NCBI GenBank assembly: GCA_025964255.1
Contig: JAOPZF010000131.1
Location: 1-50,851, forward strand
DNA: 50,851 bases
Direction: 5' to 3'
Source: Solirubrobacterales bacterium
GTDB taxonomy: Bacteria > Actinomycetota > Thermoleophilia > Solirubrobacterales > 70-9
Shown: piece by piece, positions 6,111-26,915 of the stretch
Layout: each line of letters opens with the position of its first letter
Numbering within the stretch: position 1 is the stretch's first letter
Position numbers and translations under genes: made by a program
The notes under the pieces: model-generated
The model's database searches: none
What the model was told of the DNA's origin: nothing
Seen by the model: the letters and a program-made list of their open reading frames with translations, nothing else

Positions 6111-6506
6111 ATGGCCGACTTCAAAGCCGGGGACGCGGTGCCGGAGCTGCGCGTCACGCCCGACAAGTACCTGACCAACCGCTACGCGGGTGCATCGGGC
6201 GACTACAACCCGATCCACATCGATGACGAGTTCGCCAAATCGGTCGGGCTCCCCGGCAACATTCTCCACGGCCTCTACGGGATGGGCCTGGTCGCCAAAG
6301 CGGCGGCACAGGGGCTCGCGCATGGCGATCCGCGAGCGCTGAAAAAACTGACCGTCCAGTTCCGCGGCATGGGCCTGCCGGAGCAGGAGATCGACGTCAC
6401 CGGGACCGTCAAAGAGGTCGACGGGAACCGGGTCACGGTGGATCTCGAGGCGCGCCAGGGCGACAACCGGATCATCCGCAACGCGGTCGCCGAGCTGGAG
6501 ATCTAG
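6111..6506 (+). CDS. MaoC-type dehydratase, catalytic subunit (HadB-like)
   Basis: A 131-residue hot-dog protein. The hydratase-2 motif is intact: ASGDYNPIHIDDEFAKSVGLPGNILHG, with the catalytic Asp and His of DYNPIH. It should dehydrate 3-hydroxyacyl-ACP or -CoA as the active partner of the upstream protein. The start at 6111 is chosen over an upstream in-frame codon because AGGGGGG lies 7 bases before it and MADFKAGDAVPELRV is the family N-terminus. The single-base gap to hadA-like indicates translational coupling. A family A hairpin follows about 15 bases after the stop. Confidence 0.85.
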   Translation: MADFKAGDAVPELRVTPDKYLTNRYAGASGDYNPIHIDDEFAKSVGLPGNILHGLYGMGLVAKAAAQGLAHGDPRALKKLTVQFRGMGLPEQEIDVTGTVKEVDGNRVTVDLEARQGDNRIIRNAVAELEI

Positions 6507-6522
6507 CGGAGTTCTCGTGGGG

Positions 6523-6591
6523 GGCGGGCCGGAATGGCCCCTTCCCTCACGAACTGCGGGGAGGTTCGTTCAGGGGCCATCCCGGCCCGCC
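6523..6591. repeat. Family A hairpin, copy 1 (intergenic, upstream of hrcA)
   Basis: Outer 19-base arms 6523-6541 and 6573-6591 pair with one mismatch. Inside are acgaac (6549-6554) and gttcgt (6564-6569) around the loop TGCGGGGAG. The loop and inner stem match the reverse-complement core AACAGCGGGGAGGTTCC of the other family A copies, while the outer arms are unrelated. A further gcggag/ctccgc pair (6506-6511, 6599-6604) may close it. It may act as a terminator or attenuator between hadB-like and hrcA. Confidence 0.8.
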
Positions 6592-6616
6592 TCGGAAGCT
6601 CCGCATCGGAGCCTCC

Positions 6617-8925: not shown

Positions 8926-9807
8926 GTGATCCGTCTAGCGGTGAGGTGTAAGCCGGACCAGGCAGAGATCGTGCTCGCCGAGCTGACCGTGCTGGCGCCG
9001 AATGGGGTCGAGGAGGAGCGCGGGCCGGGCTACGTCGAGTACGCGATCTACGGCGGCGAGGGCGAGCTGCCCGAGCTGGGCGAGATCGATGCGGTGGTCG
9101 GCGGCCGGCCGATCGAGGTCAGCTCGACAGTGATCCCCGATGGCTGGGCCGACCGCTGGCGCGACTTCCACAAACCGCTGCTCGTCGGCGGGCGGCTGTG
9201 GCTGCGGCCGAGCTGGGAGCCCGAGCGGGAGGGGGCGCTCGATGTCGTCGTCGACCCCGGCCAGGCTTTCGGAACCGGCGCCCACCCGACCACCCGCCTC
9301 TGCCTCGAGTACCTGCTGGAGCTCGCCGACGCCGGTGAGAACGATGGCGCCCTGACCGATCTCGGCACCGGCTCCGGAGTCCTGGCGATAGCCGCCGCCA
9401 AGCTCGGCTGGTCCCCGGTCACGGGTTACGACCACGAGGCGGCAGCCATCGAGGCGTCAGCCGCCAACGCCGCCGTCAACGACGTGACCATCGCTTTCCA
9501 CCGTCAGAACCTGCGCGAATCCCTGCCCGAGCTCGCCCCGACCTGCGTCGCCAACATGACCTCGCCGATCCTGAAGGCAATTGCGGGCCATCTGAGCGGG
9601 ATCTCGGGGGAGACTCGCCGGAACCTCCCCGCTGTTGTTCCGGCGAGTCTCCCCCGAGAGTCCGCCCCGGCGCTCCTCGTCCTTTCGGGAATCCTCCCTA
9701 ACGAGCTCGAGGAAGTCGCCGCCGCCTTCACCCCCGCCGGCTACCGCGAGCGAGACCGCCGTCAGATGGGCGACTGGGCGGCTCTTCTGCTCCGTCGGGA
9801 CATATAA
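8926..9807 (+). CDS. prmA: Ribosomal protein L11 methyltransferase PrmA
   Basis: A 293-residue SAM-dependent methyltransferase that trimethylates ribosomal protein L11. Signatures are WADRWRDFHKPLLVGGRLWLRPSW, DPGQAFGTGAHPTTRLCLEYL, SAM motif I LTDLGTGSGVLAIAAAKLG and post-motif CVANMTSPIL. The start is GTG at 8926. Between AIAGHLSG and APALLVLSGILPNE, where the family normally runs on with a short loop, about 20 extra residues are encoded exactly by a family A hairpin (9602-9659). The frame stays open, so the enzyme is probably functional with a surface insertion. hrcA-dnaJ-prmA order is typical. Confidence 0.93.
   Translation: MIRLAVRCKPDQAEIVLAELTVLAPNGVEEERGPGYVEYAIYGGEGELPELGEIDAVVGGRPIEVSSTVIPDGWADRWRDFHKPLLVGGRLWLRPSWEPEREGALDVVVDPGQAFGTGAHPTTRLCLEYLLELADAGENDGALTDLGTGSGVLAIAAAKLGWSPVTGYDHEAAAIEASAANAAVNDVTIAFHRQNLRESLPELAPTCVANMTSPILKAIAGHLSGISGETRRNLPAVVPASLPRESAPALLVLSGILPNELEEVAAAFTPAGYRERDRRQMGDWAALLLRRDI
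9602..9659. repeat. Family A hairpin, copy 2, inserted in frame in prmA
   Basis: A perfect 23-base stem: arm 9602-9624 is the exact reverse complement of 9637-9659. The 12-base loop is CTCCCCGCTGTT. The core GGAAC-loop-GTTCC is identical to copies 3 (opposite strand) and 4. In frame it encodes a Pro/Arg/Ser-rich peptide that includes RNLPAVVP (residues about 226-245 of PrmA). This is the longest perfect stem found in the window. Confidence 0.92.
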
Positions 9808-23487: not shown

Positions 23488-24287
23488 GACGACCTGCAGG
23501 TACTCGGGTTCGATCACGAGCGCCGGCGAGTCTCCGCGGAGCTTCTCGAGGTACTCGCGCAGATCAGTCTCGAGCGCCGGGGCGCCCTCCGGACCGACCT
23601 GCTCGAAGGCACTCCGCACCGGGCCGAAGTAGGCGCGGAAGAATTCGAGGTAGTGCTCGGGCGAGCGGAATGCTGGCGATTGGCGCGGCGCTCGGTACGC
23701 AGCTCGGCGATCCCGTCGCCGAACAGCTCGCGCACGTGCTGCTCGCCGCCCCAGAGTACGGGCGGCTGGGTGCCAGGCGGCGGCCCGCCGGTGTGCTTGA
23801 CGAGGATCGCGAAGAATTTCGAGAGGCCTCCGTCGGGGACCCAGTTGGCCATCCCGATCCGGCCGCCGGGCTTGACCACGCGGAGCAGCTCGTCGGCAGT
23901 CCGCTGCTGGTCGGGGGCGAACATCGCGCCGAAGATCGACATCACGACGTCGAAGCTCGCGTCCTCGAACGGGAGTGCCTGCGCCTCGCCCGCGACGAAG
24001 TCGATGTCGAGGCGCTCGGCCGCGGCCCGCTCGCGTGCCCGCTCGAGCAGGGCCGGGACGAAATCGCAGCCGACCGTGTTGCCCCAGGCCCGCCGTGCCG
24101 CCGCGATCGCCCCGTTGCCACTGCCACAGGCGACGTCGAGGACCCGCTCGTCGGGCAGGATCTCGAGCGCTTCGGCCAGGTTTTCGGACGGGTTGATGAC
24201 CAGCGAGGCGACCATCGAGAAGTCGCCGTCGGACCAGGTCCGCTGCTGCGCGGCGGTAACGGCGTCGTAATCGGGAACGGCGGTCAC
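23473..24287 (-). pseudogene. Class I SAM-dependent methyltransferase, frameshifted
   Basis: The N-terminal frame encodes a UbiE/COQ5-like methyltransferase: motif I VLDVACGSGNGAIAAARR, then FVAGEAQALPFEDASFDVVMSIFGAMFAPDQ and ELLRVVKPGGRIGMANWVPDG. Near position 23670, after ELRTERR, that frame degenerates. The family continuation, including FRSPEHYLEFFRAYFGPV, is in the next frame and ends at the TAG at 23473-23475. One missing base accounts for the shift. The start is taken as GTG 24287, 7 bases after TAGCTT on this strand, rather than ATG 24314, which would overlap pfk. It may be a true pseudogene or a sequencing error. The substrate is unknown. Confidence 0.75.
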
Positions 24288-24293
24288 GATCCC

Positions 24294-24300
24294 TAAGCTA
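24294..24300. promoter_or_regulatory. Overlapping divergent -10 hexamers for pfk and the methyltransferase
   Basis: The seven bases TAAGCTA read TAAGCT on the plus strand (7 bases before pfk ATG 24307) and TAGCTT on the minus strand (7 bases before GTG 24287). The two hexamers share five base pairs, so polymerase could open only one direction at a time. Confidence 0.5.
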
Positions 24301-24306
24301 ACCGCG

Positions 24307-25335
24307 ATGCGCATCGGAGTGTTGACCGGAGGTGGGGACTGTCCCGGGCTGAACGCGGTGATCCGCGCCGTCGTCCGTAAAGGCGTCGGCGTCCAGGGCC
24401 ACGAGTTCGTCGGCTACCGCGACGGCTGGCGCGGGCCGCTGGAGAACGACCACCGGCCGCTCGGGGTGCCCGAGGTGCGCGGCATCCTGCCCCGCGGCGG
24501 CACGATCCTCGGCTCCTCGCGGACCAACCCGTTCGCGGGCGACGGCGGGCCGGAGAAGATCGCCGCCAACCTGGAGGCCGCCGGGGTCGACGGGCTGATC
24601 GCGATCGGCGGCGAGGACACCCTCGGCGCGGCCTCGAAATTGCACTCCGAGCACGGGCTGAACATCATCGGCGTGCCGAAGACGATCGACAACGACCTCT
24701 CGGCGACCGACTACACCTTCGGCTTCGACACCGCCGTCAACGTCGCGATGGAGGCGATCGACCGGCTCCACACGACCGCCGACAGCCACCACCGGGTGCT
24801 GATCGCCGAGGTGATGGGACGGCACGCCGGCTGGATCGCCCTCCACGCCGGGCTCGCCGGCGGCGCCAACGCGATCCTGATTCCGGAGCACGAGTTCGAC
24901 ATCGACGCGGTCTGCGAGCTGGTCGGCCGCCGCTTCGCCAGCCACTTCGCTCCGATCATCGTCGTCGCCGAGGGCGCCAACCCGATCGGCGGCATGCCGC
25001 AACCCGACAACGCCAAGACCGACTCCTTCGGCCACGCCCGCCTCGGCGGCATCGGCCACTGGCTCGAGGCCGAGATCGAGCGGCGCACCGGCAAAGAGAC
25101 CCGCGCGACGGTGCTCGGCCACGTCCAGCGTGGCGGAACCCCGACGGCGTTCGACCGAGTCCTCGCGACGCGGTTCGGATTGCACGCGATTGATGCGGTC
25201 GACCAGGGGCGGTGGGGGACGATGACGGCGTTGCGAGGGACCGATATCGAACTCGTTCAGCTGACCGAGGCGACTGCCGAGCTGAAGACGGTTCCTGAGT
25301 CTCTCTATGCGGAGTCCGAAGTCTTCTTTGGCTGA
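24307..25335 (+). CDS. pfk: 6-phosphofructokinase, probably PPi-dependent type
   Basis: A 342-residue group III phosphofructokinase acting on fructose 6-phosphate in glycolysis. The N-terminal loop is GVLTGGGDCPGLNAVIRAVV, and the catalytic loop is VPKTIDNDLSATDYTFGFDTA. The donor-determining position holds Asp: GGEDT (residues 101-105, D104), with Lys125 in PKTIDND. ATP-dependent enzymes have Gly at the first site, while actinobacterial PPi enzymes such as that of Amycolatopsis methanolica carry the Asp/Lys pair, so PPi is the likely donor. That is inference from known family rules. The other sugar-phosphate motifs EVMGRHAGWIALHAG and LGHVQRGGTPTAFDR are intact. A family A fragment and a full copy follow its stop. 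Confidence 0.93.
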   Translation: MRIGVLTGGGDCPGLNAVIRAVVRKGVGVQGHEFVGYRDGWRGPLENDHRPLGVPEVRGILPRGGTILGSSRTNPFAGDGGPEKIAANLEAAGVDGLIAIGGEDTLGAASKLHSEHGLNIIGVPKTIDNDLSATDYTFGFDTAVNVAMEAIDRLHTTADSHHRVLIAEVMGRHAGWIALHAGLAGGANAILIPEHEFDIDAVCELVGRRFASHFAPIIVVAEGANPIGGMPQPDNAKTDSFGHARLGGIGHWLEAEIERRTGKETRATVLGHVQRGGTPTAFDRVLATRFGLHAIDAVDQGRWGTMTALRGTDIELVQLTEATAELKTVPESLYAESEVFFG

Positions 25336-25347
25336 CGCCCGGCGGCG

Positions 25348-25368
25348 CAGCGGGGAAGTTCCGGCGAG
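25348..25368. repeat. Family A half-element downstream of pfk
   Basis: These 21 bases match the loop and one arm of the prmA copy (reverse complement of 9613-9633 region) at 20 of 21 positions: CAGCGGGGAAGTTCCGGCGA and one more base. No matching opposite arm is present, so it looks like a decayed or truncated copy 10 bases before copy 3. Confidence 0.6.
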
Positions 25369-25377
25369 CGCCAAGGA

Positions 25378-25443
25378 GACGCCACGAGGGTGACCTTCCG
25401 GAACAACAGCGGGGAGGTTCCTCCAGGTCACCCTCGTGGCGTC
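25378..25443. repeat. Family A hairpin, copy 3, at the 5' end of the lipoprotein gene
   Basis: Perfect 18-base outer arms (25378-25395 and 25426-25443) and inner GGAAC (25400-25404) / GTTCC (25417-25421) flank the loop AACAGCGGGGAG, the exact reverse complement of the loop in copies 2 and 4. The arms resemble those of copy 4 in part (shared GGGTGACC). The GTG at 25390 lies inside the left arm. Confidence 0.9.
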
Positions 25444-25899
25444 CGCTGCGGGGCCGGGGTTCTGGCCGCGGCCATGATCGCCCTAGGGATCGTGGGTTGC
25501 GGAGGGGCCGATTCGCAGGGAGCGACGGTGAGCGTCTACGTGGGAGCGTCGTTGTGCAAGGCGGCGAAAGGGGAGCTTGCGGCGCATGGGGCGAGCGCCG
25601 GGCACTTCAAGATCGCCGCCAGATGCTTGGCGCCGAGTGAGAAGGCTGGGGGCGGCGTGGACCTGGCTACCGATGGCTCCAATGCGCGGCGAGCGACTTC
25701 GGACACCAGCGCGGTGGCGACGCTTGAAGCTCCCGGTCCCGGCACGAAGTTCAGCCGCTCGATCCTCGAATCCGCCGGCATTCCCCTGCTGACCTCCTCG
25801 TCCGGCAGCAAAGCCATGAAGGCCGTCATCGAAGCCGTCGAATCCGCGGGCAGCTCCAGTCCGCGAAGCAAGGTGCGCGAAGCCCTCGAACCCAGCTGA
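25390..25899 (+). CDS. Putative lipoprotein of unknown function
   Basis: A 169-residue product if translation begins at GTG 25390; ATG 25474 is the only later start that keeps part of the signal. A hydrophobic stretch GAGVLAAAMIALGIVGC ends in a lipobox-like LGIVGC (Cys37), predicting a lipid-anchored exported protein. The mature part (VSVYVGASLCKAAKGELAAHG, then SRSILESAGIPLLTSSSG) faintly recalls periplasmic ligand-binding proteins, but is too short for one, so it may be a truncated member. Copies 3 and 4 of the family A hairpin flank it in inverted orientation, and copy 3 supplies the first ~18 codons. Glutamate is mostly GAA, as in other exported proteins here. Confidence 0.6.
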   Translation: MTFRNNSGEVPPGHPRGVRCGAGVLAAAMIALGIVGCGGADSQGATVSVYVGASLCKAAKGELAAHGASAGHFKIAARCLAPSEKAGGGVDLATDGSNARRATSDTSAVATLEAPGPGTKFSRSILESAGIPLLTSSSGSKAMKAVIEAVESAGSSSPRSKVREALEPS

Positions 25900-25905
25900 G
25901 GGGCC

Positions 25906-25971
25906 GGGTCCCCAAGGGTGACCCGCAGGAACCTCCCCGCTGTTGTTCCGGAGGGTCACCCTTGTGGACCC
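25906..25971. repeat. Family A hairpin, copy 4, just after the lipoprotein gene
   Basis: Outer 19-base arms (25906-25924 and 25953-25971) pair with one mismatch. Inner GGAAC (25928-25932) and GTTCC (25945-25949) flank CTCCCCGCTGTT. It is inverted relative to copy 3. It starts 7 bases after the lipoprotein stop and fills most of the 107-base gap to the epimerase gene on the other strand. Confidence 0.9.
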
Positions 25972-26006
25972 TCCCCAGCGCACCTAGGAAGTGAACTCCC
26001 GGAGCT

Positions 26007-26915
26007 CTACCCGACGAGGTCTCTTAAGGCTCCGTCGATCTCCGGATACTTGAAGGCGTAGCCCAGCTCCTCGGTCCGCCGCGGCAGCACCCGCTGGCCG
26101 CCCTGCGCGACCTTCCCGAACTCTTTCCCGAATTTCACCTCGACCGCGATCCCCGGGATCGGCAGCGCCGCCGGTCGTCCCAGAGCCTTCCCCAGCGCCT
26201 TCGACCAGTCCTTGTTGGTGACCGGGTTGGGCGCGGTTGCGTTCATCACGCCGCTCGCGCTCTCGGTGTCGAGCGCCCAGGCGAGGATGCCGACCTCGTC
26301 GGAGAGATGGATCCAAGGGACCCATTGCTTGCCACCCGCGAGCGGGCCGCCGAGGCCGAGCTTGAAGGGGAGGAGGAGCTCGCCGAGGATCCCGCCCTCG
26401 GTCTCCATCACCTGTCCGGTCCGGACGATCACCAGCCGCACGCCGGCCGCCTCGACCTCGTGCGCCGAGCGCTCCCACTCGACGCAGACCGAGGCATCGA
26501 AGCCCTTGCCGGGCGCGCTGGTCTCGTCGAGCGTCTCGTCGCCGCGGTTGCCGTAGTAGCCGACGGCCGACTGGCTGACCATCACCTTCGGCTTCGTCGC
26601 CAGGCTCTCGATCGTTCCGACCAGGTTGTGGGTCGCGACCTTGCGCGAGTCCATGATCTCCCGTTTCGCTGCGTCGGTCCAGCGCTGGTTTATCTTCTCG
26701 CCGACCAGGTTGACGACCCCGTCGACGCCTTCGAAGGCCGCCGCGTCGGGGCGTTCGAGGGCCGGCTCCCAGGCGTGCCAGGTGATCTGCGGCCGCGCCT
26801 CGCGCGCCTTGTCGGGACTGCGCGTCAGTCCGACGACCTCGTCCCCTCGTCCCAGAAGCTCGTCACAGAGCGCCTTGCCGATCCTGCCGCTGGCGCCCGT
26901 GACGAGAACTTTCAT
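26007..26915 (-). CDS. TIGR01777-family NAD(P)-binding epimerase/dehydratase-like protein
   Basis: A 302-residue extended short-chain dehydrogenase-like protein. The Rossmann motif is MKVLVTGASGRIGKALCDELLGRG. Family signatures are VVNLVGEKINQRWTDAAKREIMDSRKVAT, QSAVGYYGNRGDETLDE, WVPWIHLSDEVGILAWAL, VMNATAPNPVTNKDWSKALG and the C-terminal RRTEELGYAFKYPEIDGALRDL. The molecular function is unproven; some relatives affect cell division. It lies 19 bases downstream of the malic enzyme gene on the same strand, so they are probably co-transcribed. Confidence 0.9.
   Translation of the reverse strand: MKVLVTGASGRIGKALCDELLGRGDEVVGLTRSPDKAREARPQITWHAWEPALERPDAAAFEGVDGVVNLVGEKINQRWTDAAKREIMDSRKVATHNLVGTIESLATKPKVMVSQSAVGYYGNRGDETLDETSAPGKGFDASVCVEWERSAHEVEAAGVRLVIVRTGQVMETEGGILGELLLPFKLGLGGPLAGGKQWVPWIHLSDEVGILAWALDTESASGVMNATAPNPVTNKDWSKALGKALGRPAALPIPGIAVEVKFGKEFGKVAQGGQRVLPRRTEELGYAFKYPEIDGALRDLVG

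Follow-up and report, generated by a model that had tools for sequence, protein, structure and literature searches.

How does a gene come to begin inside a hairpin? The question is raised by a 50,851-nucleotide stretch of DNA from a Solirubrobacterales bacterium (GenBank assembly GCA_025964255.1, contig JAOPZF010000131.1; hereafter the window), in which a predicted lipoprotein gene is enclosed by two similar hairpins of opposite orientation and opens in the arm of the first. The window corresponds to contig C59 in the assembly of the source genome (G000; 4.0 Mb, 277 contigs), and was considered together with its relatives in a set of twelve genomes of the genus. This comparison makes it likely that a dispersed palindromic element of about 70 bp landed on the 5′ end of a resident gene, whose start was captured together with its translational coupling.

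The 5′ end of the lipoprotein gene

The lipoprotein open reading frame (ORF; 25390-25899, +) encodes 169 amino acids with the lipobox GIVGC. It follows the 6-phosphofructokinase gene pfk (24307-25335, +), and converges with the gene of a TIGR01777 family oxidoreductase (26007-26915, −). Of the four hairpin copies in the window, numbered along the sequence, copy 3 (25376-25445, +) has a contiguous stem around the loop AACAGCGGGGAG and lies at the 5′ end of the lipoprotein gene, while copy 4 (25904-25973, −) occupies the gap between the two convergent genes, just 3′ of the lipoprotein stop. Both are of the type designated I below. Their model matches are 458 bases apart and face each other across this single ORF, as the original prediction had described (about 460 bases). 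Its statement that the frame starts at a GTG in copy 3 and receives about 18 codons from the hairpin is also confirmed, with GTG 25390 located in the 5′ arm. Arms of copy 3 (25378-25404 and 25417-25443) are 89% complementary and those of copy 4 (25901-25932 and 25945-25976) 84%, with 12 nucleotides between arms in each. The partial likeness of the arms of the two copies resides in a common block, AGGGTGACC, and in G001 and G010 the two neighbouring hairpins likewise resemble each other in this region. Upstream lies a decayed half copy (25349-25368, +), of which core and 3′ arm remain and which is likewise of type I; by hand count, 19 of its 20 bases agree with the 3′ core half plus arm (AGCGGGGAGGTTCCGGCGAG), which supports the earlier suggestion of more than one event at this place.

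The lipoprotein gene is present in 11 of the 12 genus genomes. A search with the core pattern found the upstream hairpin in three of the 11 gene-bearing genomes (G000, G001 and G010), and the downstream hairpin, at the site of copy 4, in the same three and in G007. In G003, G006, G007, G008, G009 and G011 the gene stands directly after pfk, has a short signal peptide of its own and lacks an upstream hairpin, so that G007 carries the downstream hairpin only. A possible TTG or ATG start overlaps the pfk stop in five of these six, and in G006 the start lies a short way beyond it; the gene has a different neighbourhood in G002 and G005. The old TTG start reads in frame through the hairpin in G001. 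In the window the same TTG, at 25328 and overlapping the pfk stop, opens a leader ORF of 21 codons (25328-25393, +), whose TGA (25391-25393) overlaps the lipoprotein GTG (25390-25392) in the form GTGA. In G010, a leader of 20 codons ends in ATGA at the same place in the arm. The frame is thus shifted in the window and in G010, and the start codon has moved into the hairpin arm. On the sequence comparison, the lipoprotein gene is best taken as a resident downstream neighbour coupled to pfk, on whose 5′ end the element fell, and the hairpin arm now appears to supply its start codon; of the two origins that had been offered for this arrangement, a hairpin landing on the original 5′ end is therefore the one retained. 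Arms at this locus have changed in place and the gene has stayed. It is still under purifying selection (nonsynonymous divergence dN ~ 0.24-0.28 and synonymous divergence dS ~ 0.87-1.34 between the window and five relatives).

Under the proposed mechanism, ribosomes finishing pfk would start again at the inherited TTG, make the leader, terminate at the TGA in the hairpin arm and begin anew at the GTG that overlaps it, giving the lipoprotein. The hairpin would in this way have replaced the start codon, with translational coupling kept. A Shine-Dalgarno-like AAGGAG read from the sequence (25373-25378, +) lies 11 nucleotides 5′ of the GTG. Alternatively, the GTG in the hairpin may be unused, with translation starting elsewhere, for example at ATG 25474 or at a non-standard codon, and copy 3 lying only in the 5′ untranslated region; alternative starts downstream of or outside the hairpin do exist in G001 and G010. 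However, ATG 25474 leaves eight residues before the lipobox cysteine and the charged n-region is lost, and no further in-frame ATG, GTG or TTG occurs between GTG 25390 and this codon. The position of AAGGAG and the GTGA/ATGA overlap seen in both the window and G010 also speak against an unused GTG. We regard this alternative as rather unlikely, and GTG 25390 is predicted to be the only plausible start of the lipoprotein.

No Pfam or NCBIfam match was obtained for the window's lipoprotein, and a profile search of the PDB gave nothing useful (best E 0.25). By sequence impression, the protein (orthologs L052-L060) may belong to a small family resembling a one-lobed remnant of a substrate-binding protein. 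Gene calls were made with our own codon-usage script, by which the window's lipoprotein gene was missed. On the other side of pfk, a methyltransferase-like ORF (23514-24314, −) overlaps the pfk start by a few bases; the two genes are consequently divergent with almost no promoter space.

A dispersed family of palindromes

Beyond what had been predicted from the window, the hairpins form a genus-wide family, which is found also inside unrelated coding genes and whose close copies always face each other. Copies occur between genes and within them, at sites inherited between species. They share a near-constant loop, and their arms differ from copy to copy yet remain complementary. Type I has a continuous stem around AACAGCGGGGAG, and type II (CNCTCACGAACWGCGGGGAGGTTCG) an asymmetric inner bulge and the loop GAACWGCGGGGAGGTTC; a further core, GCGGGAGG, has a short loop. 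In the window, the 22-nucleotide core GGAACAACAGCGGGGAGGTTCC is found at exactly three sites (9620 −, 25400 + and 25928 −), with an expectation of 0 in 100 dinucleotide shuffles. In addition to copies 3 and 4, it marks the type I copy 2 (9596-9665, −), located in frame within prmA (8926-9807, +). Copy 1 (6520-6594, +), of type II, has the variant core AACTGCGGGGAGGTTC and lies directly 3′ of the stop of a gene ending at 6506.

Covariance models, each built from 19 copies of a type, match all 12 genus genomes. Order-wide, 14 of 201 genomes were matched, all those of the genus (12) plus two from a sister genus, G073 and G129; family-wide, the R1 model, whose match numbers count some places on both strands, matches 12 of 40 genomes. 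In the stretches fetched, our own hairpin detector recorded 164 different hairpins, against none in reversed sequence. This sample was drawn from regions around listed model matches, mainly in G000, G010 and G001, and is complete for no genome; locus numbers (L) were matched to genomes by hand from locus lists. Among open-licence PMC papers, we found none that describes elements of this kind from Solirubrobacterales or Thermoleophilia. A loop variant GCGTGG, at one time considered private to the window genome and hence a sign of concerted evolution, was dropped because the same loop is present in G006 and G010.

Genomic context was scored for the 152 copies left after those with less than 700 bases of flank had been dropped. 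A coding signal on both sides in one frame was observed for 39 copies (25 sense and 14 antisense), in all three frames and on both strands. Another 17 touch a C-terminus and 4 an N-terminus, and the remainder lie between codirectional (55), convergent (30) or divergent (7) genes. Coding hosts confirmed by profile include CysS, PrmA, Lhr helicase, FbiC (CofG/CofH), MenD, Cmk-Der, hydantoinase A, CopC/CopD, MMPL and a UvrD-like helicase. In CysS, the insert is placed between the catalytic and DALR domains. The cysS copies represent hairpin-coded inserts tolerated in a tRNA synthetase. Of the 11 genus genomes searched for this site (all but G001), 10 have it occupied, as do G073 and G129; G009 has an empty site, and so have the other genera read. 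At the prmA site, a copy is present in G000, G001, G003, G010, G011, G073 and G129; the site is empty in six genus members (G002, G005, G006, G007, G008 and G009), and in G004 holds a hairpin of different sequence.

In two species, a Cmk-Der fusion gene (L014 and L171) has a family hairpin in the linker that joins its kinase and GTPase parts. Palindromes of a second type, whose loop resembles GTCAACCAGGGGTTGAC (e.g. L238, G004:C11:13782-13798), gave 10 matches in G004 and 14 in G009 (0-1 in the reversed control), two genomes poor in the family described here. One palindrome of this second type sits at the prmA site that holds the described family in other species.

Mobility of the element is indicated by copies L159 and L161 of G010, in which the match extends over the element and ends abruptly at its borders, the flanks being unrelated. 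No clear target site duplication was seen by eye. Within genomes, only 6 of 3144 pairs of copies show at least 90% arm identity; taken together, these data argue that the whole element is copied, and that this happens rarely. As a separate observation, the type II alignments (A4 and A6) show that the 5′ base of the inner bulge, T or G, covaries with the 3′ base, T or C (TCTCTCACG..GTTC, TCGCTCACG..GCTC). This covariation includes no standard pair in the T/T state, and differs between the duplicates L159 and L161.

All 15 pairs of copies less than 800 bp apart face each other, where 1 in 4 would be expected. The lipoprotein pair accounts for three of them, one in each of three genomes, and there is further orthology among the rest, which leaves about 11 independent sites. 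Since every close pair faces inward, the bracketing of the lipoprotein gene is not random, and because the contexts of facing pairs differ (convergent, codirectional, within genes), gene direction alone does not explain it. The facing doublet might then be the replicating unit, as in REPINs (doublets of repetitive extragenic palindromic, REP, sequences), and the lipoprotein pair an old doublet instead of two independent insertions 458 bp apart. The uniform orientation and the short-loop partner present in many pairs agree with this. On the other hand, copies mostly stand alone, the clearest recent duplicate (L159/L161) consists of one hairpin, spacers vary from about 60 to 740 bp and include real genes, and the number of pairs is reduced by orthology as stated above. 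Moreover, convergent neighbours alone would yield facing pairs if copies prefer gene ends in the sense orientation. We therefore consider a doublet unit unlikely. The short-loop subfamily, in which GCGGGAGG replaces GCGGGGAGG (L012, L130, L174, L185, L290 and others), often forms one half of facing pairs.

Maintenance of stem and loop

Arms of the element diverge while their pairing is preserved. In type I, 95.6% of 475 cells are paired and in type II 97.9% of 468, with both sides changed in 17 of 25 pairs in each type; shuffled and slid controls remain far below both. Orthologous sites between genomes number 29. In 60 same-type comparisons of orthologs, covering 1029 stem positions aligned with the best small shift, 729 were unchanged Watson-Crick pairs and 229 of the 296 changed positions were double changes with Watson-Crick pairing kept; as the species share history, the changes counted are not independent of one another. 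Among 2720 stem pairs of 131 copies there are 13 G-T and 17 A-C mismatches. Our stem filter counts Watson-Crick pairs only and lowers all mismatches alike, so the comparison between the two is fair. Control tRNAs from the same loci (n = 12, folded by energy) contain 26 G-U in 299 pairs. An early excess of A-C over G-T in 38 copies, which had suggested a reading of the RNA strand, was gone at 131 copies.

If pairing in RNA were selected, G-U should exceed A-C, and this expectation fails. As changes in pairing are double and free of wobble, palindromy is probably kept at the DNA level by replication template switching, a process deduced from its signatures. The available text on yeast coding genes (PMC8604942) names arm homogenisation and spacer inversion as the two results of template switching when it acts between inverted repeats, and the corresponding text of PMC8794818 argues that template switching maintains RNA hairpins. 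At 5 of the 29 sites, among them cysS (G005) and prmA (G010), the loop of the present family is inverted between orthologs, and the prmA hairpin of G011 also has its loop inverted relative to the window.

The loop itself is conserved beyond its surroundings. In 73 same-type ortholog comparisons, mean identity was 90% in the loop, 72% in the arms and 81% in alignable flanks, the loop being more similar than the arms in 66 comparisons and less similar in 6. Across the cysS genes of 12 genomes, loop identity averages 92%, compared with 61% at third positions of the 56 upstream codons. Because the reading frame of the loop differs between hosts, selection at the protein level cannot explain this conservation.

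We propose, tentatively and with somewhat less than even confidence, a mobile palindrome identified by its loop alone. Its arms would be re-copied by template switching, and its loop of 10-13 nucleotides recognised or converted at the nucleic-acid level. Such an element could survive for long in essential coding genes, flip its loop in place, spread with facing partners, and give a host gene a new GTGA or ATGA start. In the main reading of locus and family, which we hold to be likely, the family would have spread by copying of the whole 70 bp through some enzyme. At each site, template switching during replication would re-copy one arm from the other, so that the palindrome is kept and the loop sometimes inverted, and the loop would be held by recognition or by conversion between copies.

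Several points weigh against this interpretation of locus and family. A codon enclosed in a stem of some 20 bp is a poor site of initiation, unless the stem is opened by the leader ribosome. Template switching cannot conserve the loop, whose conservation needs an extra force. A Y1/RAYT transposase, searched for with PF01797 only, was found in none of the 12 genus genomes (5 of 14 control genomes were positive), so that a mobility mechanism is missing. Finally, copies between codirectional genes are more often in sense orientation (36 of 55, p = 0.03), which would fit an RNA role for some of them; a first count of 33 against 13 had suggested a rule for sense 3′ ends, which became less marked (36 against 19) once the classes were stricter and the copies more numerous.

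This last observation leads to the alternative that the hairpins are RNA elements (terminators, stabilisers of mRNA 3′ ends or protein-binding stem-loops) under selection for RNA pairing. Such a role is in line with the 30 copies in convergent gaps as opposed to 7 in divergent ones, with the typical position of codirectional sense copies about 40 nucleotides past the stop of the upstream gene, and with the very stable RNA fold. Copies in convergent gaps show no strand preference (15 of 30). Contrary to an RNA role, G-U pairs are not commoner than A-C mismatches, in-gene copies occupy both strands, and loops invert in place. A scan restricted to 25200-26100 gave no intrinsic terminator-like site (stem-loop with T run), so a T-run terminator is absent near copies 3 and 4, and the window has no Rfam match at gathering score; near-matches to microRNA families, far below the cut-offs, were taken as chance. 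We hold this explanation to be quite improbable for the family. Weakest of all is the mobilised cassette of the original prediction, a composite of the lipoprotein gene and its two hairpins, which the inward-facing pair would suit as it would all 15 close pairs, and which is very improbable given a gene present in 11 of 12 genomes, six of them without the upstream hairpin and one of these six with the downstream hairpin alone, and arms that changed at the locus while the gene stayed. The refuting comparison with relatives that the original prediction itself had named came out positive, to the detriment of the cassette.

With many orthologous sites in twelve genomes, the persistence of hairpins by selection on RNA or by template switching on DNA can be tested by counting wobble pairs, loop flips and double changes.

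Relation to known elements

The element described here works like the Rickettsia palindromic elements and shares features with REP sequences, from which it differs in tag, RAYT and location. In the available descriptions, REP and REPIN sequences (PMC3733652, PMC12306157) are likewise palindromic, have tens of copies and prefer convergent and unidirectional gene ends; they also include fixed dimers of opposite orientation (for REPs, PMC3733652), some intragenic members and complementary changes in the stem. However, no conserved GTAG or CGTC was detected beside 163 stems with automatically found ends, only a loosely G-rich 5′ side. Unlike REP/REPIN systems, as characterised in these descriptions, the family lacks Y1/RAYT (PF01797, 12 genomes) and has longer stems and much freer arms, and 39 of 152 copies lie inside coding sequence, which REPs seldom overlap.

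Inverted repeats subject to template switching, as far as presented in the cited texts on yeast coding genes and RNA hairpins (PMC8604942, PMC8794818), show the same signatures of arm homogenisation and spacer inversion; those repeats form no dispersed family, in contrast to the repeat family with a conserved loop found here. Coding palindromes in mitochondria of Nematomorpha (PMC6649704) are likewise perfect inverted repeats embedded in protein-coding genes, and a constant loop across unrelated genes is not described in the available part of that work.

A close parallel is with the Rickettsia palindromic elements, which in the available account (PMC10969869) are likewise short dispersed palindromes, intergenic and in frame in unrelated genes, and compatible with protein function. 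The likeness drawn here is one of form. Elements in this group of Thermoleophilia are about 70 bp long and high in G+C, with one nearly fixed loop and free arms, and, compared with what is described for Rickettsia, they use all frames and both strands, with no one frame preferred and no conserved peptide encoded. Palindromic elements lying in frame in numerous unrelated genes have been known chiefly from Rickettsia, and are found here in a distant, G+C-rich actinobacterial group, in which the lipoprotein locus provides a natural case of a repeat that appears to have moved a start codon.
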